From contig JAOAIH010000009.1 of NCBI GenBank assembly GCA_026414805.1, positions 1 to 43,011 on the forward strand: 43,011 nt of DNA, given 5' to 3'. The DNA comes from Spirochaetota bacterium (GTDB lineage: Bacteria; Spirochaetota; UBA4802; UB4802). Numbering within the stretch: the first letter of the stretch is position 1; the number at the start of each line of letters is the position of its first letter. Below are positions 15,224 through 31,307 of this stretch, in pieces. The notes beneath the pieces were generated by a model. The model made no database searches and was not told where the DNA came from. It was given only the letters and a program-made list of their open reading frames with translations. The position numbers were made by a program, and so were the translations under genes.

Positions 15224-15604
15224 TTATTTTTTCAAACTCTTAACCGCATTTTCCAATACTGTTCGTAATTCATCTGGAGTAAATGGTTTGGGAATATAGT
15301 CAAAAGCCCCTGCCTTGAGCGCTTGCCGTGCTGTTTCTACAGTAGCAAAACCAGTAAATATTATCACTATTACTTCCGGATGTCGTTTTTTTATTTCCTC
15401 TAATAGTTGCATGCCATCCATTCCTGGCATCATTAAATCAGTAAGCACAATATCAAATTTTTTCTTTTCAAGATGTTCCAAAGCAGTTTGTCCTGAATAA
15501 GCTGTTTCAACCTCATAATCAAGCTTTTGCAATACTCTAAGACAGCTTTTAAGCACAATATCTTCATCATCTACTATCAATATTTTAGCTAGTACATCCT
15601 TCAT
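15224..15604 (-). CDS. Receiver-only response regulator (CheY-like)
   Basis: The 126-residue product is a single receiver domain: acidic pair in LIVDDED, phospho-acceptor Asp56 in VLTDLMMPGMDG, Thr84 in IIFTG and Lys106 in YIPKPF. The sequence resembles the receiver of NtrC-type regulators, but there is no output domain. The GFATVETARQALKAGAFDYIPKPF segment is typical. It follows the histidine kinase gene by 12 bases on the same strand, so the kinase is its most likely phosphodonor. It could pass phosphate to another protein or act through protein binding. Confidence 0.92.
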   Translation of the reverse strand: MKDVLAKILIVDDEDIVLKSCLRVLQKLDYEVETAYSGQTALEHLEKKKFDIVLTDLMMPGMDGMQLLEEIKKRHPEVIVIIFTGFATVETARQALKAGAFDYIPKPFTPDELRTVLENAVKSLKK

Positions 15605-15616
15605 GGCCTACACCTA

Positions 15617-17566
15617 TCACGCTTTTTGAAATACTGGGTATTCTTCTTTATTTTTTGCAAGAGGAAAAGTAATGGTAAAAACTGTTCCCTTACCTACTTC
15701 ACTTTGCACATCGATGTTACCATGATACCGTTTAATTATGCCGTAGGTTACTGCCAGCCCCAAACCAGTACCTTTCCCCTGCTCCTTTGTGGTAAAAAAT
15801 GGATCAAATATTTTATCCAGATGTTCCTCTTTAATACCTATACCTGTATCTGAAACAATAATAGTTATACTGTCATTATGAAAATTATACCTAGTTTTTA
15901 CTGTTAGTGTACCCCCCTGCGGCATGGCATCTGCTGCATTCATAGCAAGGTTGTTTATAACCGATTTGAATTGATTTTCATCGATATACATATCGGGAAC
16001 ATCGGGATCCAGTTCTTTATTGATGACAATGTTATGGAAGTTAACATGCTTTTCAAGTATAACCAGCACTTCATTTATCAGAGTATTAATATTTCTGCGC
16101 TTTATATCCGGTTTAGTTGAACGTGCAAAATCAAGAATATTACGCACGATATCCCTGCACCGGAGGGTTTCCTTTATGATAACTCGCAAATCCTCCTCAA
16201 AATCTGTATCTTTAAGATCTTCCAAAAGTAGCGAACTATAGGTAAGAATAGCTGTAAGAGGATTGTTTATTTCATGAGCTATCCCCGATGCCAGCCTCCC
16301 AAGCGAAGCTAACTTCTCAGACTGCAATATCTGGTTCTGTGTCTGTTCTTTCAGCTTTCGGTCTCTTTCTTTTATTGCATCTATCATCTGATTAAATGTA
16401 TAACACAAATAACCAATCTCATCCTCGCTTTCTATTTCAATATGTGTATCATAGTTGCCATTGATTACTGATTCTGAAGCATTTACCAGTGTTCGTACAG
16501 GTTTTATTATAATATTCAAAAGATACAATGAAATCCCCACCGCAACAATTGCTATTAAAATAGTAATTGCAGCAAAGTTAACTGTTGAACTGGCTTTGAT
16601 CTCATCAAATTTTTTTTCCAAGATTCCCACATATAGAATGCCAATTGGTTTATTATATACATTTAACAATGGCTTATATGCAGAGATATACCAGTTGCTT
16701 ACAACAAAGGCTTTATCCCACCACAGCTTGCCCTGTAATATCACCTTATTGTATACTTCCTCAGAAAGCAAAGTGCCAATCGCCCGACTCCCATCAGGTC
16801 TTTTTACATTGGTACATATTCTCACATCGTCCAGAAATATCGTTGAGGTACCAACATCTAAGCCATTAATCTTTTCATCTTTAAAAACTAGATCTTTTAT
16901 CTGGTCAACAATACCATTATAATTATTTAAAATACGTACACCATAAATAATTCCAATGAAATTATTTTTGTAAAATATTGGTATAGTGACCCGTATAGCA
17001 AGAGCATCAACAACTTTTGTTCGTTCAACTTTCCGTGATTTTGGCGTAGGTACTATTTCAATAATTACTTTTTTTGCAATATCTTCACCTTCTCTTTCAA
17101 GATGTGCATGAGAAACAATATCAGTACCTTCACAGGGGATTTTATTTTTCATTACATATGAAATATGATTATCATCCGAGACATCATCGCCATATAAATT
17201 ATTATTAGCACGTGCAATTACCCTGCCCTTAGCATCAGTTATGTTGACAATATCAATACCCAATTCTCTCTGTACCTCTCTGCATTTATTGATTAATACC
17301 TGCCTGTTATTATTAATAATTGCTAATTGAATATATTCCAGCAGAGCAATATGCTTGAGCATTTTGCTTTTCAGCGCTATTCTGCTATTATAAATAAAGT
17401 CAGCTGTGTCTAAATCCTTTAATACAATATCAAACGCCTGACCAACAACATGCTTTTCAATTGTCCATATACCTACAAATGTTGATGCTATCCCCGACAA
17501 AAGAACAATGGAAAGTATACTTATAAATAATTTGAATCTAATCTGTGTAGCAAATCGTTTTCTCAT
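15617..17566 (-). CDS. Membrane sensor histidine kinase with Cache and HAMP domains
   Basis: The 649-residue protein has a first membrane helix (about residues 13-35), a large extracytoplasmic Cache-type sensor (about 36-330) and a second membrane helix (about 333-353). The sensor contains NITDAKGRVIARA and the ISAYKPLLNVYNKPIGILYVGI end typical of these domains. The cytoplasmic part holds HAMP (about 354-406), HisKA with the phospho-acceptor in ASGIAHEINNPLTAI, and a HATPase domain with N box NQFKSVINNLAMNAADAM, G1 DTGIGI and G2 GKGTGLGLAV. The kinase core is of the NtrB-like class. It probably senses a small external ligand such as a carboxylate; the ligand is unknown. The receiver gene follows 12 bases downstream. 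Confidence 0.93.
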   Translation of the reverse strand: MRKRFATQIRFKLFISILSIVLLSGIASTFVGIWTIEKHVVGQAFDIVLKDLDTADFIYNSRIALKSKMLKHIALLEYIQLAIINNNRQVLINKCREVQRELGIDIVNITDAKGRVIARANNNLYGDDVSDDNHISYVMKNKIPCEGTDIVSHAHLEREGEDIAKKVIIEIVPTPKSRKVERTKVVDALAIRVTIPIFYKNNFIGIIYGVRILNNYNGIVDQIKDLVFKDEKINGLDVGTSTIFLDDVRICTNVKRPDGSRAIGTLLSEEVYNKVILQGKLWWDKAFVVSNWYISAYKPLLNVYNKPIGILYVGILEKKFDEIKASSTVNFAAITILIAIVAVGISLYLLNIIIKPVRTLVNASESVINGNYDTHIEIESEDEIGYLCYTFNQMIDAIKERDRKLKEQTQNQILQSEKLASLGRLASGIAHEINNPLTAILTYSSLLLEDLKDTDFEEDLRVIIKETLRCRDIVRNILDFARSTKPDIKRRNINTLINEVLVILEKHVNFHNIVINKELDPDVPDMYIDENQFKSVINNLAMNAADAMPQGGTLTVKTRYNFHNDSITIIVSDTGIGIKEEHLDKIFDPFFTTKEQGKGTGLGLAVTYGIIKRYHGNIDVQSEVGKGTVFTITFPLAKNKEEYPVFQKA

Positions 17567-17811: not shown

Positions 17812-18213
17812 TCATACATACTTTTTAATTTTTTCAATCAACTCATCTATTCGTACAGGTTTTGTCAAAAAATCATTAATTCCTGGGAGGAATGATTGTT
17901 CCTCATTCAGCGAAAAACGTGAATTGGTCACTTGATTAATTGCAGTCAACATTATAATTGGCACATTTTTCACATCCTTATATTTTGAATCCTCTCTGTT
18001 GCTGCGTATCTGGTAGGATATTTCAAATCCCGCTGTGTCAGTCTCCATCATAACGTCAAGAATCATAAGGTCAGGACGATATGACAGTAGCTTTTTCAAA
18101 CCTTCAGCACCGCTATATGCCACTTCCACTTCATATCCATTCATACTCAAAGCCTGTTTTAAGCTTTCTACAAGGTCTTTATCGTCATCAACTAATAATA
18201 TTTTTTTAGCCAT
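17812..18213 (-). CDS. Receiver-only response regulator at the end of the hydrogenase operon
   Basis: The product is a single receiver domain of 133 residues from ATG 18213. It has LLVDDDKDL, phospho-acceptor Asp53 in MILDVMMETDTAGFE, Thr in MLTAIN and Lys in FLTKPVR. It has a longer stretch between the Thr and Lys strands than CheY (VTNSRFSLNEEQSFLPGIND). Similar receiver-only proteins occur in gene clusters for hydrogenases and other flavin/Fe-S complexes. I choose 18213 because GTGGGG lies about 9 bases upstream; the in-frame ATG at 18246 overlaps the hycG-like stop, has no ribosome site and adds 11 residues not typical of receivers. It may adjust complex activity or relay phosphate. Confidence 0.88.
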   Translation of the reverse strand: MAKKILLVDDDKDLVESLKQALSMNGYEVEVAYSGAEGLKKLLSYRPDLMILDVMMETDTAGFEISYQIRSNREDSKYKDVKNVPIIMLTAINQVTNSRFSLNEEQSFLPGINDFLTKPVRIDELIEKIKKYV

Positions 18214-18238
18214 TTTAGTATACCCCACCTGCCAAATT

Positions 18239-18769
18239 TTAATCATAGAGTAACTGATATATTACATTTCTTTCTTCCCATGCCTTTGTTCTCTGATAGA
18301 TATCTATTGGGAATTCAATCTGCTTCAATTCAATAGGAGAAGCCTTTTTATCAACAAGGCCTAATGCTAACGCAACACCATAGATAATTGCTTCCGGCCT
18401 TGGAGGACACCCGGGTATAAAATAGTTAACTGGAATTGCCTTATCAGCACCACCAGTAACATTGTAGGTATCAAACCAGCACCCACCACCAGTTGCACAT
18501 GAACCAATACCAAATACAAGTTTAGGTGATGGCATAGCATCATACGCTTTTTTTACCAGCGGGAAGGTAGGCCTGGTAACAGCACCAGAAATAAGCATCA
18601 CATCAGCATGCCGGGGGGATGCAACAAGTTTAATACCAAACCGTTCCACATCGTAATACGGAGTCAATACATTCAATATTTCAATATCACACCCATTACA
18701 TGCACCAGAATTGCAGTGGTATACCCATAATGATTTTGGAAATGCCTTCTTTGCTAATTTTCCCAACAT
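18239..18769 (-). CDS. hycG: Group 4 [NiFe] hydrogenase small subunit (HycG/EchC/NuoB-like)
   Basis: The 176-residue protein carries the proximal [4Fe-4S] ligands: Cys24 and Cys27 in SGACNGCDIE, Cys91 in GIGSCATGGG and Cys121 in PGCPPRPEAI. These are the marks of the NuoB/HycG family. It should form the electron exit next to the NiFe site of the large subunit, on the cytoplasmic face of the membrane arm. The C-terminal extension present in E. coli HycG (about 255 residues) is absent; the length is nearer EchC/NuoB. It starts 2 bases after the ferredoxin-like gene and is eighth among the hydrogenase genes in transcription order if HycI is not counted. Symbol is given at family level. Confidence 0.93.
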   Translation of the reverse strand: MLGKLAKKAFPKSLWVYHCNSGACNGCDIEILNVLTPYYDVERFGIKLVASPRHADVMLISGAVTRPTFPLVKKAYDAMPSPKLVFGIGSCATGGGCWFDTYNVTGGADKAIPVNYFIPGCPPRPEAIIYGVALALGLVDKKASPIELKQIEFPIDIYQRTKAWEERNVIYQLLYD

Positions 18770-18771
18770 GG

Positions 18772-19317
18772 CTATTCTCCTAATTTTTCAGGCCTTTTAT
18801 AAGACTTGGTTTTTTCATATAGTTGTTTATCAAATGTCTGAGAAGAAACAGGAATAACTGCCCGCATTTCTAAATTGTCATAACGATATCCCAAATACGA
18901 CAACTTATCAATTGCATTTTTGACTTCATGGTCAAAGCACCTGCCGCACCGCTGGCAAGTTAACATGAAAAGCTCTATTGTTTCATTAATATCCCGCTTA
19001 TCATCCGTTGCCAGCTCATACTGTGGAGTCATTGTTATAGCTTTTTCGGGGCACAGGTCAGCACAGCGGCCACAGTAGGTGCATCGTGAACCATCATACA
19101 TCATCACGCGGAGCTCATTGCATAAATCCCGCACCAGTATTGTACGAGCGGGACAGTGATTGGCACACCCGCCACATCCTATACATTTATGATGATCCCA
19201 ATAGGGCTGCCCCCTGAAGTTCTCAGGCACAGGCCTTGGTACAAAGGGGTAGGGCATGGTAACAGTTCCAGGCTTTGTAACCACAAATAGCTGTTTTATT
19301 TTACTTATAAGCCACAC
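18772..19317 (-). CDS. hycF: Hydrogenase ferredoxin-like subunit (HycF/EchF/NuoI-like)
   Basis: This 181-residue protein (E. coli HycF is 180) has two full [4Fe-4S] motifs: Cys45, 48, 51, 55 in KCIGCGGCANHCP, and Cys79, 82, 85, 89 in RCTYCGRCADLCP. A third cysteine group at Cys121, 124 and 127 (CQRCGRCF) may bind another metal such as Zn or Fe, as in HycF relatives. It should pass electrons between the peripheral electron-input module and the small subunit. An N-terminal amphipathic stretch with YPFVPRPVPENFRGQP is usual for this family. It is in the same tightly spaced operon, 25 bases after the membrane subunit gene. Confidence 0.93.
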   Translation of the reverse strand: MWLISKIKQLFVVTKPGTVTMPYPFVPRPVPENFRGQPYWDHHKCIGCGGCANHCPARTILVRDLCNELRVMMYDGSRCTYCGRCADLCPEKAITMTPQYELATDDKRDINETIELFMLTCQRCGRCFDHEVKNAIDKLSYLGYRYDNLEMRAVIPVSSQTFDKQLYEKTKSYKRPEKLGE

Positions 19318-19342
19318 GATCGTTCTCCTTGCTTTTTTAAAT

Positions 19343-20242
19343 TTAAATTCCGTATACGCTCAGTGCAATAGTACACAGTGATATGAAAATCAACACTGCA
19401 TAATATTTCACTGCCTGGTCAATTCGTAACCGTGGGTTAGTAGATCCCACTAATGCAATGAGTACAAAGATAAGTGCAACAGCCACCAGCTGTAATATAA
19501 GATCAGCTATAAATATCCCTGTATAGATAAACGGCATGAATACTGTCACAAAAAGCATTGCATAAAACATCTGTTTCAACATCATTGAATATTTAAACAG
19601 TGCATAATTAGGTCCACTGTATTCAATAAAAGGTCCTTCTAATATTTCAACTTCTGCTTCAGAGATATCAAATGGCTGTCGAGCAACAAACGCCTGCAAT
19701 GCCATGAGATACACAATCAGCATAAGCACCACTGACCATGAATACCCTGTAGAAAGAATACTGAACATGCTCACATCAATAGCTAAGCTTTTCATCTTCA
19801 CAGCACCTAATATAAAGGTCATAGCTAAGATTGGCTCTACCATAATCATGGTAATCATTTCTCGGCTTGCTCCAATCATTGCATATGCATTCTTGCTTGA
19901 CAATGCACCAAGCAATATAGATATGCCTGCTAAGGTTAATAAATATACGATAGTGATGACATCAGCATACTGTGTTAAATAATTTGGCTTAAAACCAATG
20001 GGAACTATTGTTACAACTGCAGTCACAGCTGCAAAAGCCATCATGGGTGCTAATTTGAATGCCCAGTTATCACTTACTAGATTATCCTTGCCTAGAAGCT
20101 TAAGTAAATCTAAATAAGGCTGGTAGATAGGTGGTCCCTGCCGTGACTGTACCTTAGCAGTGAGCTTTCTAATTATACCCTCATACAAGGGTGCCAGTCC
20201 CAAAAACACAATAATGTTAAGAAGTATTAAGAGAATATCCAT
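19343..20242 (-). CDS. hycD: Hydrogenase membrane subunit (HycD/EchB/NuoH-like)
   Basis: The 299-residue integral membrane protein has about eight hydrophobic helices. It shows family signatures: RKLTAKVQSRQGPPIYQPY near residue 30, the cytoplasmic loop RQPFDISEAEVEILEGP with the conserved acidic residues, and a following EYSGPNYALFKY. It anchors the hydrogenase arm and, by analogy with complex I and Mbh/Ech, takes part in coupling electron transfer to proton or sodium translocation. Start ATG 20242 is 12 bases after the large-subunit stop. Confidence 0.94.
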   Translation of the reverse strand: MDILLILLNIIVFLGLAPLYEGIIRKLTAKVQSRQGPPIYQPYLDLLKLLGKDNLVSDNWAFKLAPMMAFAAVTAVVTIVPIGFKPNYLTQYADVITIVYLLTLAGISILLGALSSKNAYAMIGASREMITMIMVEPILAMTFILGAVKMKSLAIDVSMFSILSTGYSWSVVLMLIVYLMALQAFVARQPFDISEAEVEILEGPFIEYSGPNYALFKYSMMLKQMFYAMLFVTVFMPFIYTGIFIADLILQLVAVALIFVLIALVGSTNPRLRIDQAVKYYAVLIFISLCTIALSVYGI

Positions 20243-20254
20243 ATGCCACCTGCC

Positions 20255-21928
20255 TTATACTTTTTTGCTTCTTGACAGACTTTCAAGCTCTTCATTGCTA
20301 AGGATGGTTTGCTTGCCAGTCTTAAGATCAATCAGTGCCATTCTGTCAGTACACGAGAAGCACGGGTCTATACTGCCAATGATTATTGGCGCATCAGCTA
20401 ATTGATTGTTAAGCAACATCAATGGAACACCCTGCAAGTTAGGATACGTGGGGGCACGTACACGCCAACGATCTGCCCTATTCTCTTCACCAGTGATAAC
20501 ATAGTGTACAACCTCACCACGTGGCGCTTCAACAGCTGATATTGAATGTACCAACGGCTTGATAGGCTCATCAAATTCATATAATAAAGGTTCATCAACA
20601 GGCATATCCTTTAACACTTGCCTGATAATTTTAATGGATTCAAATGTTTCAAGGATACGTACAAGAACGGTTCCCCATACATCACAGGTATCCACAACCG
20701 GGACATCAAATTGTACTGCATCATAAGCAGCATAGGGATGGTCACGGCGTGTATCGATATCTACTCCTCTTGCGCGAGCAACAGGGCCAACCAAACTCCA
20801 CTTGATTGTATCCTCTTTTGAAATATACCCAACACCTTTTGTTCTTCTATGAATGGCAGTGTCGCCAACTATTGCATTCTTAATTGCAATAAGTTCTTTT
20901 TCTACTTTATCCATGACATTTAAAATATCATCCTTATGTGGCAATATATCGCGCCTTACGCCACCAATGATAATCATGCCATAGGTCTTTCGATTACCGG
21001 TAATCTTTTCTGCAAGCCACATTACAGGCTCACGCACACGCCATGAATGCATAAATACTGTATCAAACCCTATCAAGTGACCTGCAACCCCCAACCACAG
21101 CAGGTGCGAATGGATTCGTTCAAGCTCAAGCATAAATGTACGGATATATTCAGCTTTCCGAGAAATTTTAATACCCGCTGCTAACTCAACCGATTGCGAA
21201 TACGATGTAGCATGTACTGATCCGCAAATACCACAAATACGCTCTGCAATAAACGGTACCTCATTATATGTTACCTGAGTGGTACACAATTTTTCAATAC
21301 CACGATGTGTCATAAAACCACGGTAATCACAACCTTTAATTGTTTCACCATCAACATACACTGCAAAATGTGCTGGTTCATGCAGTGTTGGATGGAATGG
21401 ACCAATAGGAACAGTGGTACATCCTTCAGGTGCCTCATCAAGCTGGTATGCCACATCCTCAGCTGCAGGCGGCATTAAATTCCAGGGAACTTCTTTGCGA
21501 AGAGGGTATATCCCTTGAGGCCAATCATCAGCCAGAATTAGTCGTTTTGGCTTTGGATGACCTTCAAATTGCATGCCAAGCAAGTCCATATATTCACGTT
21601 CTGACCACCCTGCATTAGGAATATCAGGAGTGATGGAATCCACAACAGGCTTATCAGCAGGGACTTTAGTTCGTATACAGCAGAAGATGTTATCTTTATC
21701 AAAACTAAAGGTATGTACTAAACCCAATGTATTATCTCTGGCTATATTATCGTACCCTATGCTTACCATGTAGCGGGCACCCATTGCAATTACTTCATTG
21801 CATATTTCCCGTATATTTTTTTTATCAACATCAACAAACAACCGCGTTGCAAGTGGTGTTTCAAAGCCCTTGACAGAGCCTTTGAACTTTTCCTTTAAAT
21901 CCTTTTTAACTTGGTCTATCGATGGCAT
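20255..21928 (-). CDS. hycE: Group 4 [NiFe] hydrogenase large subunit (HycE-like, NuoC-NuoD fusion)
   Basis: The 557-residue protein (E. coli HycE 569) joins a NuoC-like N-terminal domain (about 1-150) and a NuoD/hydrogenase domain. All four NiFe ligands are present: Cys232 and Cys235 in RICGICGSVH, and Cys523 and Cys526 in DPCFSCTDR. This separates it from NuoD of complex I, which lacks them, and shows a true hydrogenase. A 28-residue tail (MALIDLKTG... to the end) follows Arg529; the same DPCxSCTDR-M junction in HycE is cut by HycI, whose homologue is encoded two genes upstream. It catalyses H2 production or uptake. Similarity places it in the formate-hydrogenlyase-like branch, but subgrouping needs a tree. 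Confidence 0.96.
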   Translation of the reverse strand: MPSIDQVKKDLKEKFKGSVKGFETPLATRLFVDVDKKNIREICNEVIAMGARYMVSIGYDNIARDNTLGLVHTFSFDKDNIFCCIRTKVPADKPVVDSITPDIPNAGWSEREYMDLLGMQFEGHPKPKRLILADDWPQGIYPLRKEVPWNLMPPAAEDVAYQLDEAPEGCTTVPIGPFHPTLHEPAHFAVYVDGETIKGCDYRGFMTHRGIEKLCTTQVTYNEVPFIAERICGICGSVHATSYSQSVELAAGIKISRKAEYIRTFMLELERIHSHLLWLGVAGHLIGFDTVFMHSWRVREPVMWLAEKITGNRKTYGMIIIGGVRRDILPHKDDILNVMDKVEKELIAIKNAIVGDTAIHRRTKGVGYISKEDTIKWSLVGPVARARGVDIDTRRDHPYAAYDAVQFDVPVVDTCDVWGTVLVRILETFESIKIIRQVLKDMPVDEPLLYEFDEPIKPLVHSISAVEAPRGEVVHYVITGEENRADRWRVRAPTYPNLQGVPLMLLNNQLADAPIIIGSIDPCFSCTDRMALIDLKTGKQTILSNEELESLSRSKKV

Positions 21929-21956
21929 ATTCTACCTCTTATTCATAAATGTTGTA

Positions 21957-23819
21957 TTATTTCACATTACCACCTGTCCACCACAGCATGGACTTTAATG
22001 CTGCAAACATATGCCTGTCTTTATATCTATTGTTATTATTAAGGTCCTGATATCCACACAACCATGTTGGCATAACTTTTTCTTGTGAACCTGCACTCTT
22101 TCTGACTATAAAGGCAACAGCAAATCCAACAATCACTATCAATATCACAACTAGTGGGACAGCAATTGCATTTGCATACTGCATACCTGGCACGTTAATT
22201 GAAACACCCATAGCGGAAGTAAATACAGCATTGTGTGCCGACAATTCATTGAAGGAACTCTGCACTATTGAACCAGATGAAGACTTGAATATATCTGTAA
22301 TTGTATCATAATATATAAAAGGGATAACCCCTTGGACTATACATAACAGAGCCAAAATAACTTTTGGCAAAAGCATCTTCCAGGATACTTCCTGTGGTTT
22401 ATGCTCAACATTCCATTCTATGCCAGTTGAAGCAAATGACATTCCAAAAAACTTAACATAGCATGCAAGCGTCAATGCGCTGGTAAACAGAGCAATGATC
22501 CCAAACAGTGCAAGGAAGAATATCTGACTGCCACCAAGCAGTGTTGCTGATATTATTGTCCACTTGCTTGCAAATCCGCTGAAGGGAGGAACACCAGCTA
22601 TCGACAATGAGGCAATCCCTGCAATTACTGCACTTGCTGGCATATATTTTAAAAGACCACCCAACTTATTAAGGTCTTTTGTATGAGTTTCATATAATAT
22701 ACTGCCTGCGGTAAGGAAGAGCAGCCCTTTAAATATGGCATGATTTAATACATGATACAATATTCCAATGATGACCACAAACGATAGCATCTGTACAAAC
22801 ATGTTGTTGCTGTGGTACATATACAAACCAGCCCCAATAGCCAGAACAATGTAACCTATCTGGCCAATGGAGCTGTATGCAAGCAGACGTTTTGCATCGC
22901 TCTGCTTTAAAGACTGGGAGGTACCAATAAACAACGTTACTACACCAAAAGTTGCTATAATAGCTCCCCATACAAGAGGATTCACAGTATGCCCTTCATG
23001 AGGAATCATCCAGAAAAATGTTCGTACTATACCATAAATACCAGTTTTAATCATAACGCCACTCAGCAATGCACTAATAGGGGATGGTGCAATTGAATGT
23101 GCATCTGGCAGCCATAGTTGACCAAATGGGAATACACCAGCTTTAAAACTAAAGCCTAATAATAACAGAGTATACACCAGCACAGGAACTGTTCCGCTGG
23201 TTGCTCCAAGCTTCTGCGTCAATGTATGTACAGAATCTCCCATAGCAGAGCCATTGATAAGGAATGCACCCGCAACTATAAACAACCATGCAAGCTCCAT
23301 AAGGATTAAGTATTTATTTGCATTACGGACATTTTGCTTTTCTTTATATTCAAAGCGGATCAAAAAGTATGATGCAATAGTCATAAGTTGCCATGCTACA
23401 GTAAACCCAATACTTAAATCATCAACAGTTACTATACCAATCATTCCAAGAATAAATAATGGGAAGTTTATGTAGTAAGGACGCAGGGAATAGTCCTTAT
23501 AATGTTCCATATAATCAATGGAGTACAGTGCACTCATCACTGCCATAAAGGATATAATGGCAATGAAGAACCCTGAAAACGCATCTATCAAAAAATAGAT
23601 TGGCACAGAGCCAAAATATATTGCCTGTGTCTCAGATGATTTCTGTACAAAAATTGCAATATACGCCACATAGAGTAGCAACCCTGCTGCAATTGCTACT
23701 ATAACTGTGTTTATCCAGCCTGCTAATTTTCTTTTAGAAGCTATGAGCGGCACAATGATACTTGCTCCAAGCAATATAGCAAAAGCCAGTAGTAACGTAG
23801 CATAAAGATCAATGTTCAT
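21957..23819 (-). CDS. Antiporter-like membrane subunit (HycC/HyfB/NuoL family)
   Basis: This protein of about 620 residues has roughly 14-16 hydrophobic helices and the Proton_antipo_M core: FSFKAGVFPFGQLWLPDAHSIAPSPISALLSG and DAKRLLAYSSIGQIGYIVLA. The second contains the lysine in a typical HxxxxAPSP...SxxxQ context. It is the only antiporter-like subunit here, as in formate hydrogenlyase 1 (HycC); no NuoK, HyfF or Mrp subunit genes are visible. The role is ion translocation coupled to the hydrogenase. ATG 23819 is chosen because AAGGAG (23827-23832 on the minus strand) sits 7 bases upstream; the frame can also be read from GTG 23825. It overlaps the protease stop by 11 bases. Confidence 0.92.
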   Translation of the reverse strand: MNIDLYATLLLAFAILLGASIIVPLIASKRKLAGWINTVIVAIAAGLLLYVAYIAIFVQKSSETQAIYFGSVPIYFLIDAFSGFFIAIISFMAVMSALYSIDYMEHYKDYSLRPYYINFPLFILGMIGIVTVDDLSIGFTVAWQLMTIASYFLIRFEYKEKQNVRNANKYLILMELAWLFIVAGAFLINGSAMGDSVHTLTQKLGATSGTVPVLVYTLLLLGFSFKAGVFPFGQLWLPDAHSIAPSPISALLSGVMIKTGIYGIVRTFFWMIPHEGHTVNPLVWGAIIATFGVVTLFIGTSQSLKQSDAKRLLAYSSIGQIGYIVLAIGAGLYMYHSNNMFVQMLSFVVIIGILYHVLNHAIFKGLLFLTAGSILYETHTKDLNKLGGLLKYMPASAVIAGIASLSIAGVPPFSGFASKWTIISATLLGGSQIFFLALFGIIALFTSALTLACYVKFFGMSFASTGIEWNVEHKPQEVSWKMLLPKVILALLCIVQGVIPFIYYDTITDIFKSSSGSIVQSSFNELSAHNAVFTSAMGVSINVPGMQYANAIAVPLVVILIVIVGFAVAFIVRKSAGSQEKVMPTWLCGYQDLNNNNRYKDRHMFAALKSMLWWTGGNVK

Positions 23820-24315
23820 ACACACACTCCTTTTGGTTGCTCATAATTGATGCCTGAACCATAGTAACAATTGAATTTACTTTATCTTTTATAATGGGCG
23901 ATAGTCCCTTTCCAAAATCATTATGCTTGATAACTATACCCAGCATATATACATCTTTGCCAGATGTCTCCAGTATTTTACATGACATCCGCAATGCCAG
24001 TTTGTGCGTTGATACATCAAGGCCTGTTTCAACAAAGTCACTGAGTTTGCCGAATACAACAGTGCCTTCATCTGCATCAGCTTCTATTGCATCGATAATT
24101 ATCACATTTTTGCAATTTGACTGGGCTATAGCAAAACAGTAGCTTTCAATAATGTCTTCAACATTGAATATCACAATATGAGGATCTTTTACTGTTGATG
24201 CCAGTGCATCAACAATGTGAAGACCCACTGCATCATCACACCTATAGTAATTCCCTACTCCCACAATGCAAGTAGTGTCTTTGAAAATATTTTGCATTGT
24301 CTGCATACAACTCAT
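23809..24315 (-). CDS. hycI: Hydrogenase maturation protease (HycI/HyaD family)
   Basis: The 168-residue enzyme has the family start IVGVGNYYRCDDAVG (Asp27/28), the second metal-site Asp75 in VIIIDAIEAD and His104 in VSTHKLAL. These match the Ni-sensing Glu/Asp, Asp and His of HybD/HycI. It should remove the C-terminal peptide of the HycE-like subunit after nickel is inserted. It is encoded within the same operon, overlapping the flavoprotein gene by 4 bases (ATGA) and the antiporter-like gene by 11. The other maturation genes (hypA-F) are not in this window. Confidence 0.93.
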   Translation of the reverse strand: MSCMQTMQNIFKDTTCIVGVGNYYRCDDAVGLHIVDALASTVKDPHIVIFNVEDIIESYCFAIAQSNCKNVIIIDAIEADADEGTVVFGKLSDFVETGLDVSTHKLALRMSCKILETSGKDVYMLGIVIKHNDFGKGLSPIIKDKVNSIVTMVQASIMSNQKECVYEH

Positions 24316-25145
24316 ATCTGCTCACCCAGCGTCTTAATTTGGCGATAGGTATACACAGGCCCATCAGTGCACACCAGGGTCCTCCCGATGGCACAGTGCT
24401 GACACTTTCCCACGCCGCACTTCATATGCCTCTCTAACGTTGAGATTATCATATCATCTTTGATCCCACGCTGCATAAGCTCTTTGATGACAGCATTAAA
24501 CATCACTGGAGGCCCACATACAAATGCCACAGTGTTTTCAACAGGTATCTCTACTTTATCAAACAGTGTTGTGATTATACCTACATTGCCCTTCCATTCA
24601 GGGGTACCATTATCAACAGTAATGAATGTTTCAAAGCCCTCAATTTTTTGCCATTGATCCAGCATATACTGGTACATCAAATCCTGTGGGGAACGTGATC
24701 CATACAGGAGCAGTATTCTGCCAAAGTCTTTCCTGTGCTGTAACACATGAACAATTGATGACCGTAACGGTATAAGGCCAATACCACCTGCCACATAGAT
24801 GACATTTTTGCCTTTTATTTCTTCAAACGGGAACCCGTTGCCAAATGGCCCACGTATCCCTACCTTATCACCCACCTGCAGATCATGGAGCGCGTAAGTT
24901 ACTTTACCAATTCGTCGCACAGTAATGTGAAATCGGTCGTTTTCAGGGCTTGGTGGCAGTGACACGGCAAATTCACCCGCACCAAATACAGTGCACATAA
25001 TAAACTGGCCGGATTTAAACTTGAAATTGCCATCAATCTCCTTATTATCAAATCTCAAATAAAATGTTTTTACATCAACTATTTCATCTTTGATCTCTTC
25101 AATTGTGGCAATCTCAGGAACGGTTACTATTTTCTGTTCGCTCAT
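24312..25145 (-). CDS. FAD/NAD(P)-binding electron-transfer subunit (HydG/AsrB, sulfhydrogenase gamma-like)
   Basis: The 277-residue flavoprotein has a ferredoxin-NADP reductase fold. The FAD-binding barrel includes FHITVRRIGKVTYAL and GIRGPFGNGFP. The NAD(P) half begins with VIYVAGGIGLIPLRSSI and includes VAFVCGPPVMF. The C-terminal [2Fe-2S] site is Cys243, 248, 251 and 259 (CGVGKCQHC ... C). This is the layout of the gamma subunit of archaeal sulfhydrogenase, AsrB and PyrK-like proteins, which exchange electrons with NAD(P)H. ATG 25145 is chosen: AGGTGA lies 5-6 bases upstream, whereas GTG 25154 directly abuts the previous stop. It would be the NAD(P) port of the hydrogenase complex; coenzyme choice is unknown. 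Confidence 0.92.
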   Translation of the reverse strand: MSEQKIVTVPEIATIEEIKDEIVDVKTFYLRFDNKEIDGNFKFKSGQFIMCTVFGAGEFAVSLPPSPENDRFHITVRRIGKVTYALHDLQVGDKVGIRGPFGNGFPFEEIKGKNVIYVAGGIGLIPLRSSIVHVLQHRKDFGRILLLYGSRSPQDLMYQYMLDQWQKIEGFETFITVDNGTPEWKGNVGIITTLFDKVEIPVENTVAFVCGPPVMFNAVIKELMQRGIKDDMIISTLERHMKCGVGKCQHCAIGRTLVCTDGPVYTYRQIKTLGEQI

Positions 25146-25154
25146 AGCAATCAC

Positions 25155-26207
25155 CTATTCATGAATTTCTCTTCGGATATATGTTACAACATTTGGCAAC
25201 CCTATATCGCCAGGACATACCCATGCGCAACGACCGCATCCCACACATCCTGGCCGCAAATATTTCTTTGACTGTGAATATGATAACTTGCAGAAAAACC
25301 TCTTATTTCTTCTGTCCTCAATAGGCTTTCGGGGATTATGGCCTCCTGCCATTCTTGAATACCCTTCGTATGAACATGAATCCCATGTACGAAGCCTTAA
25401 GGTATTTCCTGCAAGTGTGTTGGCATCATTTATATTAAAGCATGTACATGTAGGGCACACATACGAACATGCACCACATTCAATACATTGATTGCCAATA
25501 TATTCCCATATCTCTTCTTTTATGAATCCTGTTGTCACCCTATTCATGACACGTGATACCCATGCTTTTGACTCTGTAGCTATATCTTCAAACATGGTAA
25601 TTGATTTTTCCACTAGCTTCTGTTTTTGTTTCAGGTGTTCGTCAGTAGCTTCAGAAAATTTAAATGAGTCAATGAATGCCTTTCCTTTTTCACTGCCAAC
25701 CTCAACCAGGTAACTATCGCCTAAATCCGTAAGGTTTAGATCATACCCTTCCTGTGCTGCAGGGCCACTGTCAGTACACACACAAAAACACTGTTTAAAT
25801 GGAACCACACAGGTATTGGCTACTATGAACATACGGCTACGGTGATGGCGATAGACCTCATCAACAAATTCTTGCCCAAGGAAAAATCTGTCAATGCACT
25901 GTAGTCCCGTTAAGTCACATGAGCGCAGGCCAAACAGCGCCTTTGGTGTATCATCAAACACCATCGCGATGTCTACCTTTTTTGCGCTTTTATCATATTT
26001 ATATTGCATGATAGTTTCAAGATGCGGAAATACAACATGCTTTGGTGGATTAGTTGGGATGGGTGCTTCCAGATTTACCATATCTGCACTTGTTTTATCA
26101 AAGAAACACTGCCCAAATTTTTCATCCAGATATGGGCCGTATACGGTATACTTTTCTTCTAAGGCTTTTGCTATTTTCTTTACATCATTTTTCTTAATCA
26201 GATACAT
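25155..26207 (-). CDS. 4Fe-4S electron-transfer subunit (HydB/AsrA, sulfhydrogenase beta-like)
   Basis: The 350-residue protein has a large N-terminal domain (KIAKALEEKYTVYGPY, then LFGLRSCDLTGLQCIDRFF) typical of the HydB/AsrA family. An extra cysteine group follows at Cys133, 140, 142 and 144. Two ferredoxin motifs follow: Cys241, 244, 247, 251 (CIECGACSYVCP) and Cys321, 324, 327, 331 (CVGCGRCAWVCP). It normally bridges the FAD gamma subunit and a catalytic partner. ATG 26207 follows the molybdopterin gene stop by one base and has AAGGTG about 6 bases upstream. An upstream in-frame start at 26267 would overlap the previous gene by 59 bases and add 20 atypical residues. Confidence 0.92.
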   Translation of the reverse strand: MYLIKKNDVKKIAKALEEKYTVYGPYLDEKFGQCFFDKTSADMVNLEAPIPTNPPKHVVFPHLETIMQYKYDKSAKKVDIAMVFDDTPKALFGLRSCDLTGLQCIDRFFLGQEFVDEVYRHHRSRMFIVANTCVVPFKQCFCVCTDSGPAAQEGYDLNLTDLGDSYLVEVGSEKGKAFIDSFKFSEATDEHLKQKQKLVEKSITMFEDIATESKAWVSRVMNRVTTGFIKEEIWEYIGNQCIECGACSYVCPTCTCFNINDANTLAGNTLRLRTWDSCSYEGYSRMAGGHNPRKPIEDRRNKRFFCKLSYSQSKKYLRPGCVGCGRCAWVCPGDIGLPNVVTYIRREIHE

Positions 26208-26208
26208 A

Positions 26209-28176
26209 TCACACCTTCTCAATTCGTACTGGGATAGTTGCTTCTTCGCCCTGTGACACAATGTCACTATATGCTAACAAAAATGATGCAATTCCCTCTC
26301 TGATAAAATAGGGAACATACGCTGTACCGGGAGCAACATCATCCGAAACCATAACCATTGCCTTCATGCTTGCCTTTTCAGCAACCACCTTGACCGGCCA
26401 GCGGTCACGCACTCCAATTTTTTTTGCATCTTCAGGAGCTATCGCCACATACCCATCAGGGTATAACAGCAATGTGGCATTGTACTCACGCAGTGGAATA
26501 AATGTCTTATGCATAATGTTGTTCTGATGCCAGTAATGCTGTGCTTTCCCCAACATAAGAAGATAGGGATAGCTTTCGGTTGCCTGTACTGCTGCATACG
26601 GTTTTTGTGGAAGTATAAACGAAACTTTTTCAGGAATACAATATTTTGTTCCCTCTGGATTCTTCTTGGTGCATGGCCACTGTACTCCCTGTTTTTTTGC
26701 AAGCAGCTTATAGCTTATCCCTTCATAGGTAGGTGTAAGCGAAGCAATCTCGTCCATTATGTCTGAAGGGTGCTGGTAATTAAATGCAGTACCAGCTGCC
26801 TGCGCTATTTCACTGGCAAGTTTCCACAGTGGCAACACATCAAATGAAGGCTCGCACTTCTTTGATGCAAGCTGAACACGACGCTCGGTGTTGGTAAATG
26901 TACCATCAGTTTCAATATAGGTTGCAATGGGAAGCACTACATGTGCAAACTCTGCAACTTTATTAGTAAAAGCACCAATATAAGCAACAAATGGCAATGA
27001 CTTCAATCGGTCTGCATATTTTACAATACCATCATCATGATCAACAATTACCAATGCCTTAAGTGGTGATGCACTATCGGTAAGAAGCTGCTCAACTGTC
27101 TTACCTTTTGATGCTGGTAAGGCACCCCACATTTTCTCAAATTTCTTCCTTGCTTGAGCATCATCAATACTTTGAAATCCGGTGAGCAAATCAGGCGCAC
27201 ACCCCATATCAAAGCTGCCCTGCAGATTGTTTATGCCTGCAATTGGATTTACACCACAGCCTTCCTTACCAATCTTATCTGCTAGTACAAATACATTGTA
27301 AATTGATGCGATGGTATCATAGCTTAAACCTGACACACCTGAGGTGAAAAATACAGCAGCACTTTTTGATTTTACCAGCTTTTCAGCAACAAATGCTATT
27401 TCACTTTGCAACACTCCTGTTTCTTTTTCTATTGAATCAAACTGTATGGAGGATAGATATTTTTTATATTCATCATAATGTGCCGATCCCGTTTTCCCCA
27501 AATTATTTTTATCAATATAATAACCAATTGCATCAAATACTTTCCGCATTGTACCCGGTTTGATATTGATAAACTTTTTAGAAAGTTTTGCAATCTTGGT
27601 CATACGGCTGTCGATAGTTATAAGTAAAGAACCATTGCGAGCTGCATAATGCAATTCACTACCAATAATAGGATTCTGTGTAGTTATATCCATTCCTGCC
27701 ACAATGAGCACTTCAGCCTTACGAATGTCCTCAAGCGAACCTAACATTCCTGCAAAACCAGTACCATTGTACAGGACGTCAAGGCTATTCCGGTGACCTG
27801 ATTCTGCCTGTATGCTGATATTGTTGGTTTTAAAAGTTAAGCGAGCCAGCTTCATTAGTGCAAAATTGTCTTCATTGGATGAACGTGGAGAAGCATAAAA
27901 CGCAATCTCTTCAGGTTTATAGGATGATAATGCTGAAACAAGTTTGGCGATAGCATCTTTATAATTAACTTCTCCACTATCCCTGATATAGGGCTTCACA
28001 ATACGCTCCTGTGTACCAAGCAACTCATGAATGTTCCAGCCTCGTACACACAACCTTCCTTTGCTTACTGGATGTACTCGAGAGGGGAAAACTCCCTGCA
28101 CAGATGTGCCATTGACTTTTAGATAATGACCACATCCTGTCCCACAAAAGGTGCATACACCTGGCATATAACTCAT
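26209..28176 (-). CDS. Formate-dehydrogenase-like molybdopterin protein lacking the Cys/Sec metal ligand
   Basis: The 655-residue protein of the DMSO reductase family has a complete N-terminal [4Fe-4S] site: Cys8, Cys11, Cys15 (VCTFCGTGCG) and Cys43 (GRLCVRGW). It also has family elements such as GVNPIAGINNLQGSFDMG, FTNTERRVQ and a C-terminal molybdopterin dinucleotide-binding domain. In formate dehydrogenases the KxAR...TNNxxxxxR segment leads to the Mo/W ligand Cys or Sec followed by His. Here KLARLTFKTNNISIQAE is followed by S126-G127-H128, so the ligand position is Gly while His is kept. No Cys occurs near it and there is no in-frame TGA. It may bind a pterin without the normal ligand, or act as an electron-transfer or structural subunit like NuoG. 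It is first in the operon; GAGG lies 7 bases upstream. Confidence 0.9.
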   Translation of the reverse strand: MSYMPGVCTFCGTGCGHYLKVNGTSVQGVFPSRVHPVSKGRLCVRGWNIHELLGTQERIVKPYIRDSGEVNYKDAIAKLVSALSSYKPEEIAFYASPRSSNEDNFALMKLARLTFKTNNISIQAESGHRNSLDVLYNGTGFAGMLGSLEDIRKAEVLIVAGMDITTQNPIIGSELHYAARNGSLLITIDSRMTKIAKLSKKFINIKPGTMRKVFDAIGYYIDKNNLGKTGSAHYDEYKKYLSSIQFDSIEKETGVLQSEIAFVAEKLVKSKSAAVFFTSGVSGLSYDTIASIYNVFVLADKIGKEGCGVNPIAGINNLQGSFDMGCAPDLLTGFQSIDDAQARKKFEKMWGALPASKGKTVEQLLTDSASPLKALVIVDHDDGIVKYADRLKSLPFVAYIGAFTNKVAEFAHVVLPIATYIETDGTFTNTERRVQLASKKCEPSFDVLPLWKLASEIAQAAGTAFNYQHPSDIMDEIASLTPTYEGISYKLLAKKQGVQWPCTKKNPEGTKYCIPEKVSFILPQKPYAAVQATESYPYLLMLGKAQHYWHQNNIMHKTFIPLREYNATLLLYPDGYVAIAPEDAKKIGVRDRWPVKVVAEKASMKAMVMVSDDVAPGTAYVPYFIREGIASFLLAYSDIVSQGEEATIPVRIEKV

Positions 28177-28454: not shown

Positions 28455-31307
28455 CTAATTCACTAAATGTTCCCTTACCCACTCAATTGCATATTGCAAA
28501 AGATCCTGTGATGACTCTAAGTGCAATTTCATTTTAATCTTTTCACGAACATTCTCAACGGTTTTCACACTTATATGCAATTTCTGTGCAATATGTTTAT
28601 TGCCTAATCCATGCCCAATAAGCTGGAAAATTTCAAATTCCCTATTGGTAAGCGACTCCACCGAACTGTCAATCTTTCCTTTATCTGACAATGATTGAAC
28701 CATTTGTTCTTTCATATCGCTTGACAGGTATATATCCCCTTTGAGTACTGTATATATGGCATTAATTATTTTATCAGGTGCTTCCTGTTTCATAAGATAC
28801 CCTCTGGCACCCGCTTTTATTGCTCGTTCTGCATATAACTTTTCATCGTACATTGATAGCACCAATGCAGGCAATTTTGGAAAACGCTGTTTTAAAGCTT
28901 TTACAAGCTCAATGCCACTTGTCCCATTTAATGATATATCAACAAGAATACAATCTGGTATCTTCTTATTAACAACCTCAATAGCCTCATCCGCTGATTG
29001 AGCTTGGCCTATTACTTCCAAATTCTTCTGTGAATTTATGAGCTGTTGCAACCCCTGCCGTACTATTGGATGATCATCAACAATAACAACACTGTATTTT
29101 TTACCTGATTTAGGTTTGTCTATCACTGCCCTCTGCGGGCCCTTTTGTATTGTACATTGAATTATTGTGCCCCCATTTTTATTATTCTGTACCTGAAATG
29201 AGGCATTAATAATCCATGCTCTGTACTGCATAATGTGCATGCCCATCCCCTTGGTTAAATCAACCTCATCCGGTATGCCTTTCCCATCATCCATTACTTT
29301 AAGATAATAGTACATAGTATCTTCAGAAACAGTGACAGCAATATTTTTGGGCTTGCCATGCTTCACAGCATTATTTAACGCTTCGCGTATAATATAATAC
29401 ACATGTACTGTATCTATTGTTTCATCTATATTGCTTGTAATATTCCACTCCAGAATGGCTTTGATTGAAAAGTTTTTATTTATGTCAGCAATCATCTCCT
29501 GCAGTGATGAATACAATCCCTTGTTGTTTAAATCAACCGGGCTCAATCCCCTTGCAATAAGGCGTGTTTGCTCAATAGCCTGATGTACCATATTTTGTAT
29601 TTCTGCAATTTCATCTGCTTCTTGAGGGTAATTATTTTTTAATTTCAATCTCAACATTTCGGTTTTAAATATTATGCCCGCCAGATGCTGACCTAACCCA
29701 TCATGTAAATCTCGAGCAATACGATTACGCTCCTCTAAATTTGCCTGAAGTATCTTTTTTTCAAGTTGCTTCTTTTCGGTTATATCAATACCTATAAACA
29801 TATAGTAATCAAATTCATCATTACTGTATACAGGCCTTGCATGCCACTGCACAATTTTTTCTTCACCGCTTTTTGTATTAATTGAACATTCAAAAACTCG
29901 AGTTGCCTTTGTCTTTTTCATTGTAGACAGTTGATGTCTGAATGCCTTTTGCCCAAAATCAGGTATAAACAGATCACAACATGTTTTGCCAAGTATCTCA
30001 TCTAGTACAAATCCTGTGGCCTGTAACATAGCTTTATTGCAGGTAAGGATATTCCCTTCCTCGTTCAGCGTGATAAAATATGCTGGTGCAATATCTTCTA
30101 AATTCTGAATGATATCCAGCCCTTTTTTTAGTTTTTCTTTTGTTTTCTTAACATCAGTAAAGTCACGTGCAATAATTGAACAACCAATAATAGTATTAAA
30201 CTCATCACGCAACGGTGAGATAGTAAGTGATAGATTATGGATGGCACCTTTTTTATCCAACCCTTCTGTTTCGTAATGATCTATCGCTTCATTTTGTTTA
30301 ATTAATTTTAATAACTGGTCAAATTCATCTGGCCTGTAAGGAGGCGATAGTATACTGATATCGCAGCCAACCACTTCATCAAATGAATACCCAAAAATAT
30401 ATTGCGATGCTTTATTCCAGCTTGCTATCTTGCCATCTAATGTTATCCCAATGATTGCATCATCTGAGTTATCAAGTAAAATGGATAACTGGTTGCGTAC
30501 CTGTTCAATGTGCTTTCGTTCAGTAATATCACGCGCCACACTCAATATTGCATTTTCGTTGAGATAGTAAATGATGGTGCTCACAATTTCAACAGGGATA
30601 GTAGTGCCGTTTCTATCAACAAATGAGGTCTCATAAGGGTCTGTATTTTCAGCAATGGACTGCAAATAGTGGTGGATCCTGTCACTATCGCCCTCTGCTG
30701 TTAATTGTTGCATAGTCATAAGCTTTATTGCATCATGTGAAAAACCAAGTCGATCACATGTGGTATTATTCACCTCCAATATTGAACCATCGCGTCTGTG
30801 AATAATAACCATATCAGATATGCTGTTAAACAGTGATTTGTAGCGCATCTGCGAAGCAAGTAACTCACTGGTCCTTTGTAATACTATATCTTCTAGCAAA
30901 TCCTTTTCTTTGCGCAGCATGTCTTCTGCATGTTTAATGCGCATCATTGCATTAATTTGTGCAATGAGTTCGGCCTGATCAATTGGTTTAGTTAAAAACG
31001 CATCAGCCCCCAGCTTGAGGCCTTTAACCTTGCTTTGCGTATCGGTATGTATTGCAGTGAGGAAAATTATTGGTATGTGGCGAGTTTTTGGATTGTTTTT
31101 TAACACCTGGCACACTTCATAGCCATCCATCTCTGGCATCTTTACATCAAGGATAATAACATCAGGATTTTGTTCTACAGCCTTTTGTATGCCCTCTTTG
31201 CCTGATTGTGCTGTGATAACCTCACAACCGGCAATCAGGTTTTTTAAAAGTGCTGTAATGCTTACTAGATTATCCTTTTTATCATCAATAACTAAAATCG
31301 TATTCAT
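28455..31307 (-). CDS. REC-PAS-histidine kinase-REC-LuxR fusion (one-protein signalling system)
   Basis: The 950-residue protein begins with a receiver (1-125, Asp54 in IILDVKMPEMDG) and a helical linker, then has three PAS domains (roughly 155-265, 275-395 and 400-520). A NarX-type HisKA_3 region follows (LEERNRIARDLHDGLGQHLAGI, His in DLHDG) and a HATPase domain (REALNNAVKHGKP, DDGKGIPDE). It ends with a second receiver (about 735-850, VDDHPIVRQGL, VDISLNGTSG, MKQ) and a LuxR-type HTH (LTNREFEIFQLIGHGLGNKHIAQKL to SVKTVENVREKIK). A NarX-like kinase and a NarL-like regulator are thus joined in one soluble protein. There is no membrane segment, so the signal is cytoplasmic. Its ATG overlaps the previous stop by one base (TAATG). 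Confidence 0.93.
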   Translation of the reverse strand: MNTILVIDDKKDNLVSITALLKNLIAGCEVITAQSGKEGIQKAVEQNPDVIILDVKMPEMDGYEVCQVLKNNPKTRHIPIIFLTAIHTDTQSKVKGLKLGADAFLTKPIDQAELIAQINAMMRIKHAEDMLRKEKDLLEDIVLQRTSELLASQMRYKSLFNSISDMVIIHRRDGSILEVNNTTCDRLGFSHDAIKLMTMQQLTAEGDSDRIHHYLQSIAENTDPYETSFVDRNGTTIPVEIVSTIIYYLNENAILSVARDITERKHIEQVRNQLSILLDNSDDAIIGITLDGKIASWNKASQYIFGYSFDEVVGCDISILSPPYRPDEFDQLLKLIKQNEAIDHYETEGLDKKGAIHNLSLTISPLRDEFNTIIGCSIIARDFTDVKKTKEKLKKGLDIIQNLEDIAPAYFITLNEEGNILTCNKAMLQATGFVLDEILGKTCCDLFIPDFGQKAFRHQLSTMKKTKATRVFECSINTKSGEEKIVQWHARPVYSNDEFDYYMFIGIDITEKKQLEKKILQANLEERNRIARDLHDGLGQHLAGIIFKTEMLRLKLKNNYPQEADEIAEIQNMVHQAIEQTRLIARGLSPVDLNNKGLYSSLQEMIADINKNFSIKAILEWNITSNIDETIDTVHVYYIIREALNNAVKHGKPKNIAVTVSEDTMYYYLKVMDDGKGIPDEVDLTKGMGMHIMQYRAWIINASFQVQNNKNGGTIIQCTIQKGPQRAVIDKPKSGKKYSVVIVDDHPIVRQGLQQLINSQKNLEVIGQAQSADEAIEVVNKKIPDCILVDISLNGTSGIELVKALKQRFPKLPALVLSMYDEKLYAERAIKAGARGYLMKQEAPDKIINAIYTVLKGDIYLSSDMKEQMVQSLSDKGKIDSSVESLTNREFEIFQLIGHGLGNKHIAQKLHISVKTVENVREKIKMKLHLESSQDLLQYAIEWVREHLVN

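Follow-up and report, generated by a model that had tools for sequence, protein, structure and literature searches.

The closest described relative of the system presented here is the group 4a formate hydrogenlyase (FHL) of Escherichia coli (Hyc/Hyf; structures 7Z0S and 7Z0T), and the authors of an FHL structure suggested that an FHL-type complex was a recent ancestor of complex I, FdhF and HycB being related to NuoG (PMC9474812). A second point of comparison was provided by Matheus Carnevali et al., who described in Saganbacteria a group 4 hydrogenase cluster, termed "enigmatic" by them, that combines Mrp subunits, cooF, asrA and asrB with a molybdopterin oxidoreductase not assignable as a formate dehydrogenase (FDH) (PMC6349859). 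In this work, we analyse a nine-gene operon located at 18239-28176, on the minus strand, of a 43,011-nucleotide stretch of DNA from a Spirochaetota bacterium (contig JAOAIH010000009.1, positions 1 to 43,011; hereafter, the window), with the order FdhL-HydB-HydG-HycI-HycC-HycE-HycD-HycF-HycG, where FdhL is the name used here for the FdhA-like subunit. We lean towards the view that this operon would encode a reversible membrane-bound NAD(P)H/H2 oxidoreductase, in which a dead FdhL acts as a NuoG-like relay and ion coupling is weak at most. This view is built on gene content, synteny, clade, intact Fe-S, NiFe and FAD motifs, and the loss of both the formate active site and the glutamate of transmembrane helix 5 (TM5), all of which can be read from the sequence.

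The operon shares with FHL homologues of HycC, HycD, the fused HycE, HycF, HycG and HycI and, with E. coli Hyc in particular, the presence of a single antiporter-like subunit. It differs from FHL in lacking HycB, in the replacement of FdhF by a homologue without the formate active site, in the added HydB/HydG module and in the change of the TM5 Glu to Gln. With the Saganbacteria RX5A cluster it has in common, by published description only, a group 4 hydrogenase, an FdhA-like oxidoreductase that could not be classified, asrA and asrB, whereas that cluster also contains cooF and Mrp antiporter-like subunits (PMC6349859). As a consequence of that report, the gene combination is not unheard of, and the novelty raised as a question by an earlier sequence-only reading of this DNA stands only in part: no description of an identical cluster was found in the open-access literature (subscription papers were outside the scope), the Saganbacteria case being the only similar one. 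The present analysis contributes the broad distribution of the family, with cultured species among its hosts, its placement as sister to FHL, the dead active site of FdhL and the TM5 change.

Gene Content and Conserved Motifs

Family models identify in the operon the subunits that the sequence-only reading had named, that is, HycE, HycD, HycF, HycG, an HycC/HyfB-like protein and HycI, as well as the HydB/AsrA-like and HydG/AsrB-like proteins (Table 1). Family searches found among the operon proteins neither a HycB-like four-cluster protein, whose absence had also been claimed, nor an AsrC sirohaem subunit. The genes overlap, nearly abut or lie at most a few tens of bases apart, a layout consistent with a single transcript.

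HycE carries both CxxC motifs of the NiFe site and is encoded with NuoB-, NuoH- and NuoL-type partners, which identifies it as a group 4 [NiFe] enzyme. Its ligand cysteines (C232, C235, C523 and C526) are kept in 41/41 relatives, and its DPCFSCTDR motif is followed by a C-terminal tail, the extension for processing by HycI, which retains the conserved Asp, Glu and His of a maturation protease. In HydG, the [2Fe-2S] cysteines, the FAD site and the GGxG/CGPP nucleotide-binding motifs are fully or almost fully conserved among about 40 relatives, and the same is true of the [4Fe-4S] cysteines of HydB, HycF and HycG, as expected from the earlier claim that the hydrogenase cysteines and the FAD, [2Fe-2S] and [4Fe-4S] sites are intact. 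The true start of HydB is probably near 26210, with homologues beginning around residue 20. Gene content, synteny and intact motifs thus support the initial idea that a group 4 hydrogenase is joined to an NAD(P) module of the sulfhydrogenase type.

HydB and HydG homologues are also found in the group 3b sulfhydrogenase SH1 (9NEZ) and in AsrABC. By contrast, the hydrogenase of the present operon belongs to group 4, and neither the large and small subunits of group 3b nor AsrC are encoded in it. A group 3b sulfhydrogenase is ruled out by the group 4 large subunit, and a sulfite or sulfur reductase by the missing AsrC and the group 4 hydrogenase.

Distribution and Phylogeny

Relatives of HycE with 64-96% identity are encoded in 41 named loci, the nearest of which (91-96%) are in Spirochaetota metagenome-assembled genomes (MAGs). 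The ordered gene set, which the first reading had proposed to seek in other genomes, was found across these loci wherever the contig was long enough, with only two exceptions, L040 and L074. The hosts include Spirochaetota, Acidobacteriota, Aminicenantes, one Oligoflexia MAG, Betaproteobacteria (Chitiniphilus, Chitinibacter, Chitinilyticum, Deefgea and Rhodocyclus) and Chromatiaceae (Gammaproteobacteria; Lamprocystis and Thiodictyon), and cultured hosts include Chitiniphilus, Chitinibacter, Deefgea, Rhodocyclus purpureus and Lamprocystis purpurea. Among 296 sampled Spirochaetota genomes, 32 encode a close HycE (at least 68% identity). A close HydB was present in all 28 of these that fell within a smaller HydB sample, and no genome of that sample had a close HydB without a close HycE. 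The shared order in the 41 loci and the co-occurrence of HycE and HydB argue that the combination is not due to chance. Since the search for named loci was pattern-based and catches close relatives only, the known spread is a lower bound. In plasmids, the search gave only FHL-like large subunits, all below 60% identity.

The two exceptions are rearranged (L040:178-1104 and L074:69-1046): the gene for HycD is found upstream of FdhL, and no HycC separates HycI from HycE. Both contigs stop before any HycC appears.

In a tree of the catalytic domain, built as the sequence-only reading had suggested to place the subgroup, the HycE family forms one clade (Shimodaira-Hasegawa-like approximate likelihood ratio test, 99) that is sister to, and not inside, group 4a FHL. 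The sister group comprises E. coli HycE and HyfG and the FHL enzymes of two Spirochaetota loci (L083 and L084); in the operons of both, the FdhF gene has an in-frame TGA as the codon for selenocysteine. Outside both lies a third group, formed by Spirochaetota clusters (L080-L082 and L090-L092) in which HydB and HydG are likewise linked to a group 4 hydrogenase. Unlike the present family, these have a CooF/HycB-like protein instead of FdhL, NuoC is separate from the large subunit and, in the most complete locus (L090), Mrp-type subunits are present. As the tree holds few reference sequences and has long branches at the deep joins, the branching order among the deeper groups should be taken as provisional.

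FdhL and the Proposed Electron Path

FdhL was aligned, with 38 members, to E. coli FdhF, NapA and two Spirochaetota FdhF. Its four cluster cysteines are kept in 38/38 members, and its identity is 28% to FDH versus 20% to NuoG. Its match to TIGR01591, of 411 bits, is under the family cut-off of 666. Position 140, where Sec or Cys acts as the Mo ligand, is Gly in 37 members and Trp in the other one, and Arg333 is replaced by Ala, Thr, Val or Pro. Its formate active site having been lost, FdhL is no formate dehydrogenase, and this loss rules out that the system is a formate hydrogenlyase. From these residues we infer that the cofactor may have been lost as well, and FdhL probably persists as an electron-carrying relay or scaffold, similar to NuoG. 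Consequently, the resemblance to formate dehydrogenases that had been noted before is real, but the role then suggested for this protein, as the entry point of a second donor, is unsupported, because every relative lacks the Mo ligand, the catalytic Arg and most residues of the pocket.

In the reading that we prefer, with the subunits taken as one complex, HydG, which has FAD and a [2Fe-2S] cluster, would trade hydride with NAD(P)H. Electrons would travel in either direction through the clusters of HydB, then probably through the single [4Fe-4S] cluster of FdhL, and onwards through HycF and HycG to the cytoplasm-facing NiFe site of HycE. FdhL would be the descendant of a molybdenum formate dehydrogenase that is catalytically dead and remains as a structural element or electron relay, comparable to NuoG of complex I. 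HycC and HycD would anchor the complex in the membrane, as in E. coli FHL, and ion translocation would be absent or weak.

The Membrane Arm and Doubtful Ion Translocation

The TM5 glutamate of HycC is Gln146 in 38 of 39 members, the exception being the aberrant L060. Comparison antiporter-type subunits have Glu in nearly all cases and Gly in a few MrpA-like proteins, and none has Gln. The full channel set of TM5 Glu, TM7 Lys and TM12 Lys/Glu is therefore not present in HycC, although only its TM5 residue is changed, as TM7 Lys228, Lys260, His358/362 and Lys421 are kept; HycD also keeps its conserved Glu set. Because the residue is Gln throughout the family in the only antiporter-like subunit, the earlier proposal that the complex exchanges electrons while moving ions is doubtful, even if the other channel residues speak for it. 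The exceptional HycC (L060:8136-9992), on an uncultured Lamprocystis contig, looks frameshifted in the TM5-TM7 region. The intact copies of other Chromatiaceae point to a possible assembly error.

A possible but rather unlikely alternative is an energy-coupled NAD(P)-linked hydrogenase, with the same electron path, in which HycC and HycD would move ions. The oxidation of H2 with NAD(P)+ would power this movement or, with the system running in reverse, the ion gradient would push electrons from NAD(P)H to H2. NAD(P)H and H2 are separated by a small (near-zero) redox gap that leaves little energy for pumping, which agrees with the TM5 change but does not prove that pumping is absent. The retained residues of HycC and HycD favour coupling. 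In NuoL, the E144Q change was reported to reduce both pumping and complex I activity, but an Mrp-type growth assay showed little effect of it (PMC4938563). The E135A change in HycC of E. coli FHL was without effect, and that study obtained no evidence in favour of energy conservation (PMC5061711).

Less Likely Cofactors and Electron Donors

It is improbable that FdhL still carries a Mo or W pterin and acts on another substrate, as part of a three-way switch among this substrate, NAD(P)H and H2. The structure model of FdhL (predicted local distance difference test, pLDDT, 88.9) has the complete FDH fold (TM-score 0.88-0.90 to E. coli FDH-H), H128, equivalent to His141, is kept in most members, and the family has its own near-invariant residues (G127, H128, D163, N168 and G283). 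In addition, arsenite oxidase binds Mo without a protein ligand. However, the pocket residues common to FDH and NapA (K44, R138, N176, H181, Q301, Q335, R581, T592 and K679) are replaced in nearly all members, several of them by one fixed residue. For instance, Lys44 is Arg in 38/38 members, as it is in NuoG, Asn176 is Asp, His181 is Asn and Gln301 is Gly in all of them, while Arg138 is Glu or Asp in 37 of the 38 (Gln in the other) and Gln335 is Ile, Leu or Val.

We give still less credit to a confurcating hydrogenase that would use ferredoxin together with NAD(P)H, with ferredoxin entering at HydB, FdhL or HycF. Ferredoxin is the electron donor of sister enzymes such as the membrane-bound hydrogenase MBH, HydB is rich in cluster-binding cysteines, 17 of its cysteines being invariant among 40 relatives, and HycF has four further invariant ones (C66, C121, C124 and C127). 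Nevertheless, the operon has no dedicated ferredoxin gene, and its sole apparent flavin domain, that of HydG, resembles those of SH1 HydG and PyrK rather than known bifurcating flavoproteins. The extra cysteines of HycF take the place of part of a metal site of E. coli HycF, where a metal ion close to FdhF is held by the quartet C117, C120, C155 and C158 (PMC9474812). Only the first pair of this quartet is matched, so the site may be remodelled.

Finally, an FHL variant with formate oxidation by FdhL and an NAD(P) branch supplied by HydB/HydG can practically be discarded: despite the FHL-like operon and a best FdhL score to the alpha subunit of formate dehydrogenase, it is refuted at the sequence level by the loss of the Mo ligand and Arg333 in every relative, and none of the other FdhA-like matches in the host genome has the Cys/Sec140-His141-Arg333 set.

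Some observations weigh against the weakly coupled NAD(P)H/H2 oxidoreductase that we favour. Some coupling may persist, to judge from the TM7 Lys, the TM12 Lys and the HycD glutamates, all of which are kept. The structure model of HydB is poor (pLDDT 61.9, below 50 in the C-terminal half), and the predicted number of clusters in this subunit is a cysteine count only. Lastly, the near-invariance of the FdhL-specific residues could reflect a different function rather than mere scaffolding.

Possible Origin of the NAD(P) Module

The locus L118 (960-5000) contains an FdhA-HydB-HydG cluster with the same three-gene order. Its FdhA is 34% identical to FdhL and shares with it the Asp at position 176. 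In the HydB tree, the sequence closest to the family from outside is the HydB of L118, on a long branch and weakly supported. Unlike FdhL, this FdhA has an intact active site (Cys140, His141 and Arg333), and no hydrogenase is encoded nearby. The cluster is a candidate NAD(P)-linked formate dehydrogenase with sulfhydrogenase-type subunits, and a similar FdhF-AsrA-AsrB set has been noted in the archaeon Iplasma (PMC3750248).

An L118-type cluster is a possible origin of the NAD(P) module. The derivation of FdhL itself from an L118-type FdhA was dropped, as in the tree FdhL forms its own clade, close to L118 but not nested with it. We tentatively propose, with less confidence than the biochemical reading above, that this widespread clade, sister to FHL, may have arisen when an FdhA-HydB-HydG formate:NAD(P) enzyme joined a hydrogenase, FdhA then losing catalysis to become a NuoG-like wire. 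The resulting arrangement resembles complex I in its NAD(P)H flavin module, in an FDH-fold subunit that has a [4Fe-4S] cluster but no formate chemistry (NuoG) and in the NuoCD, NuoB, NuoH and NuoL homologues. It differs from complex I in that HydB/HydG are not NuoE/NuoF, a NiFe site replaces quinone and FdhL is nearer to FDH than to NuoG.

Gene Neighbourhood and Host Genome

The unit reaches beyond 18239, to a stand-alone response-regulator gene that overlaps the end of hycG and is conserved beside HycG in most relatives. A similar gene adjoins hycI in L090. Upstream of fdhL there is a large multi-domain sensor/regulator gene (28455-31307, minus strand), and many relatives carry related receiver or kinase genes at this place. 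Genes resembling cbiM, hypB/cobW and hupE (nickel/hydrogenase maturation) flank the cluster in Chitinibacteraceae.

The host genome (3.24 Mb, 95.6% complete) contains hypD, further [NiFe] large-subunit matches on contigs C1, C5 and C6, one of which (on C1) is a second group 4 enzyme, as well as three [FeFe]-type matches on contigs C5 and C97. Its hydrogenase set is unusually rich.

Table 1. Features of the operon and of its downstream flank, with positions in the window.
Feature	Position	Strand	Basis
FdhL, formate-dehydrogenase fold without formate active site, one [4Fe-4S] site (C8, C11, C15, C43)	26209..28176	-	Family models, alignments, structure model
HydB/AsrA-like iron-sulfur subunit	25155..26267	-	Family models (ShyB/HydB/AsrA)
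HydG/AsrB-like FAD, NAD(P), [2Fe-2S] subunit	24312..25154	-	Family models (ShyC/HydG/AsrB)
HycI-type [NiFe] hydrogenase maturation protease	23809..24315	-	Family models
HycC/HyfB-like antiporter-type membrane subunit	21957..23825	-	Family models (HyfB-like)
HycE, fused NuoC-like and NuoD/[NiFe] large subunit	20255..21928	-	Family models
HycD/NuoH-like membrane subunit	19343..20242	-	Family models (NuoH)
HycF, FHL iron-sulfur subunit, two [4Fe-4S] motifs	18772..19317	-	Family models
HycG, small-subunit-like (NuoB), one [4Fe-4S] site	18239..18769	-	Family models
Stand-alone response-regulator receiver protein, final gene of the unit	17812..18246	-	Family models, synteny
Sensor-kinase-like gene, probable regulator, downstream	15617-17566	-	Conserved in many, not all, relatives
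Short response regulator, probable regulator, downstream	15224-15604	-	Conserved in many, not all, relatives

Significance

The family would represent a natural sister of FHL in which an NAD(P)H module was added and formate chemistry disappeared, with the fold that holds the cluster preserved. The annotation of genomes that carry the FdhL cluster as having a "formate hydrogenlyase" or a "formate dehydrogenase" would be wrong. As cultured hosts exist, both the idea about the origin of complex I and the role of the TM5 Glu are open to testing. If the tentative proposal on the origin of the clade is true, the family would have repeated independently the route by which complex I may have acquired an NADH arm and an inactive FDH-like subunit, with a NuoG-like wire coupled, in this case, to a membrane arm with an altered pump.

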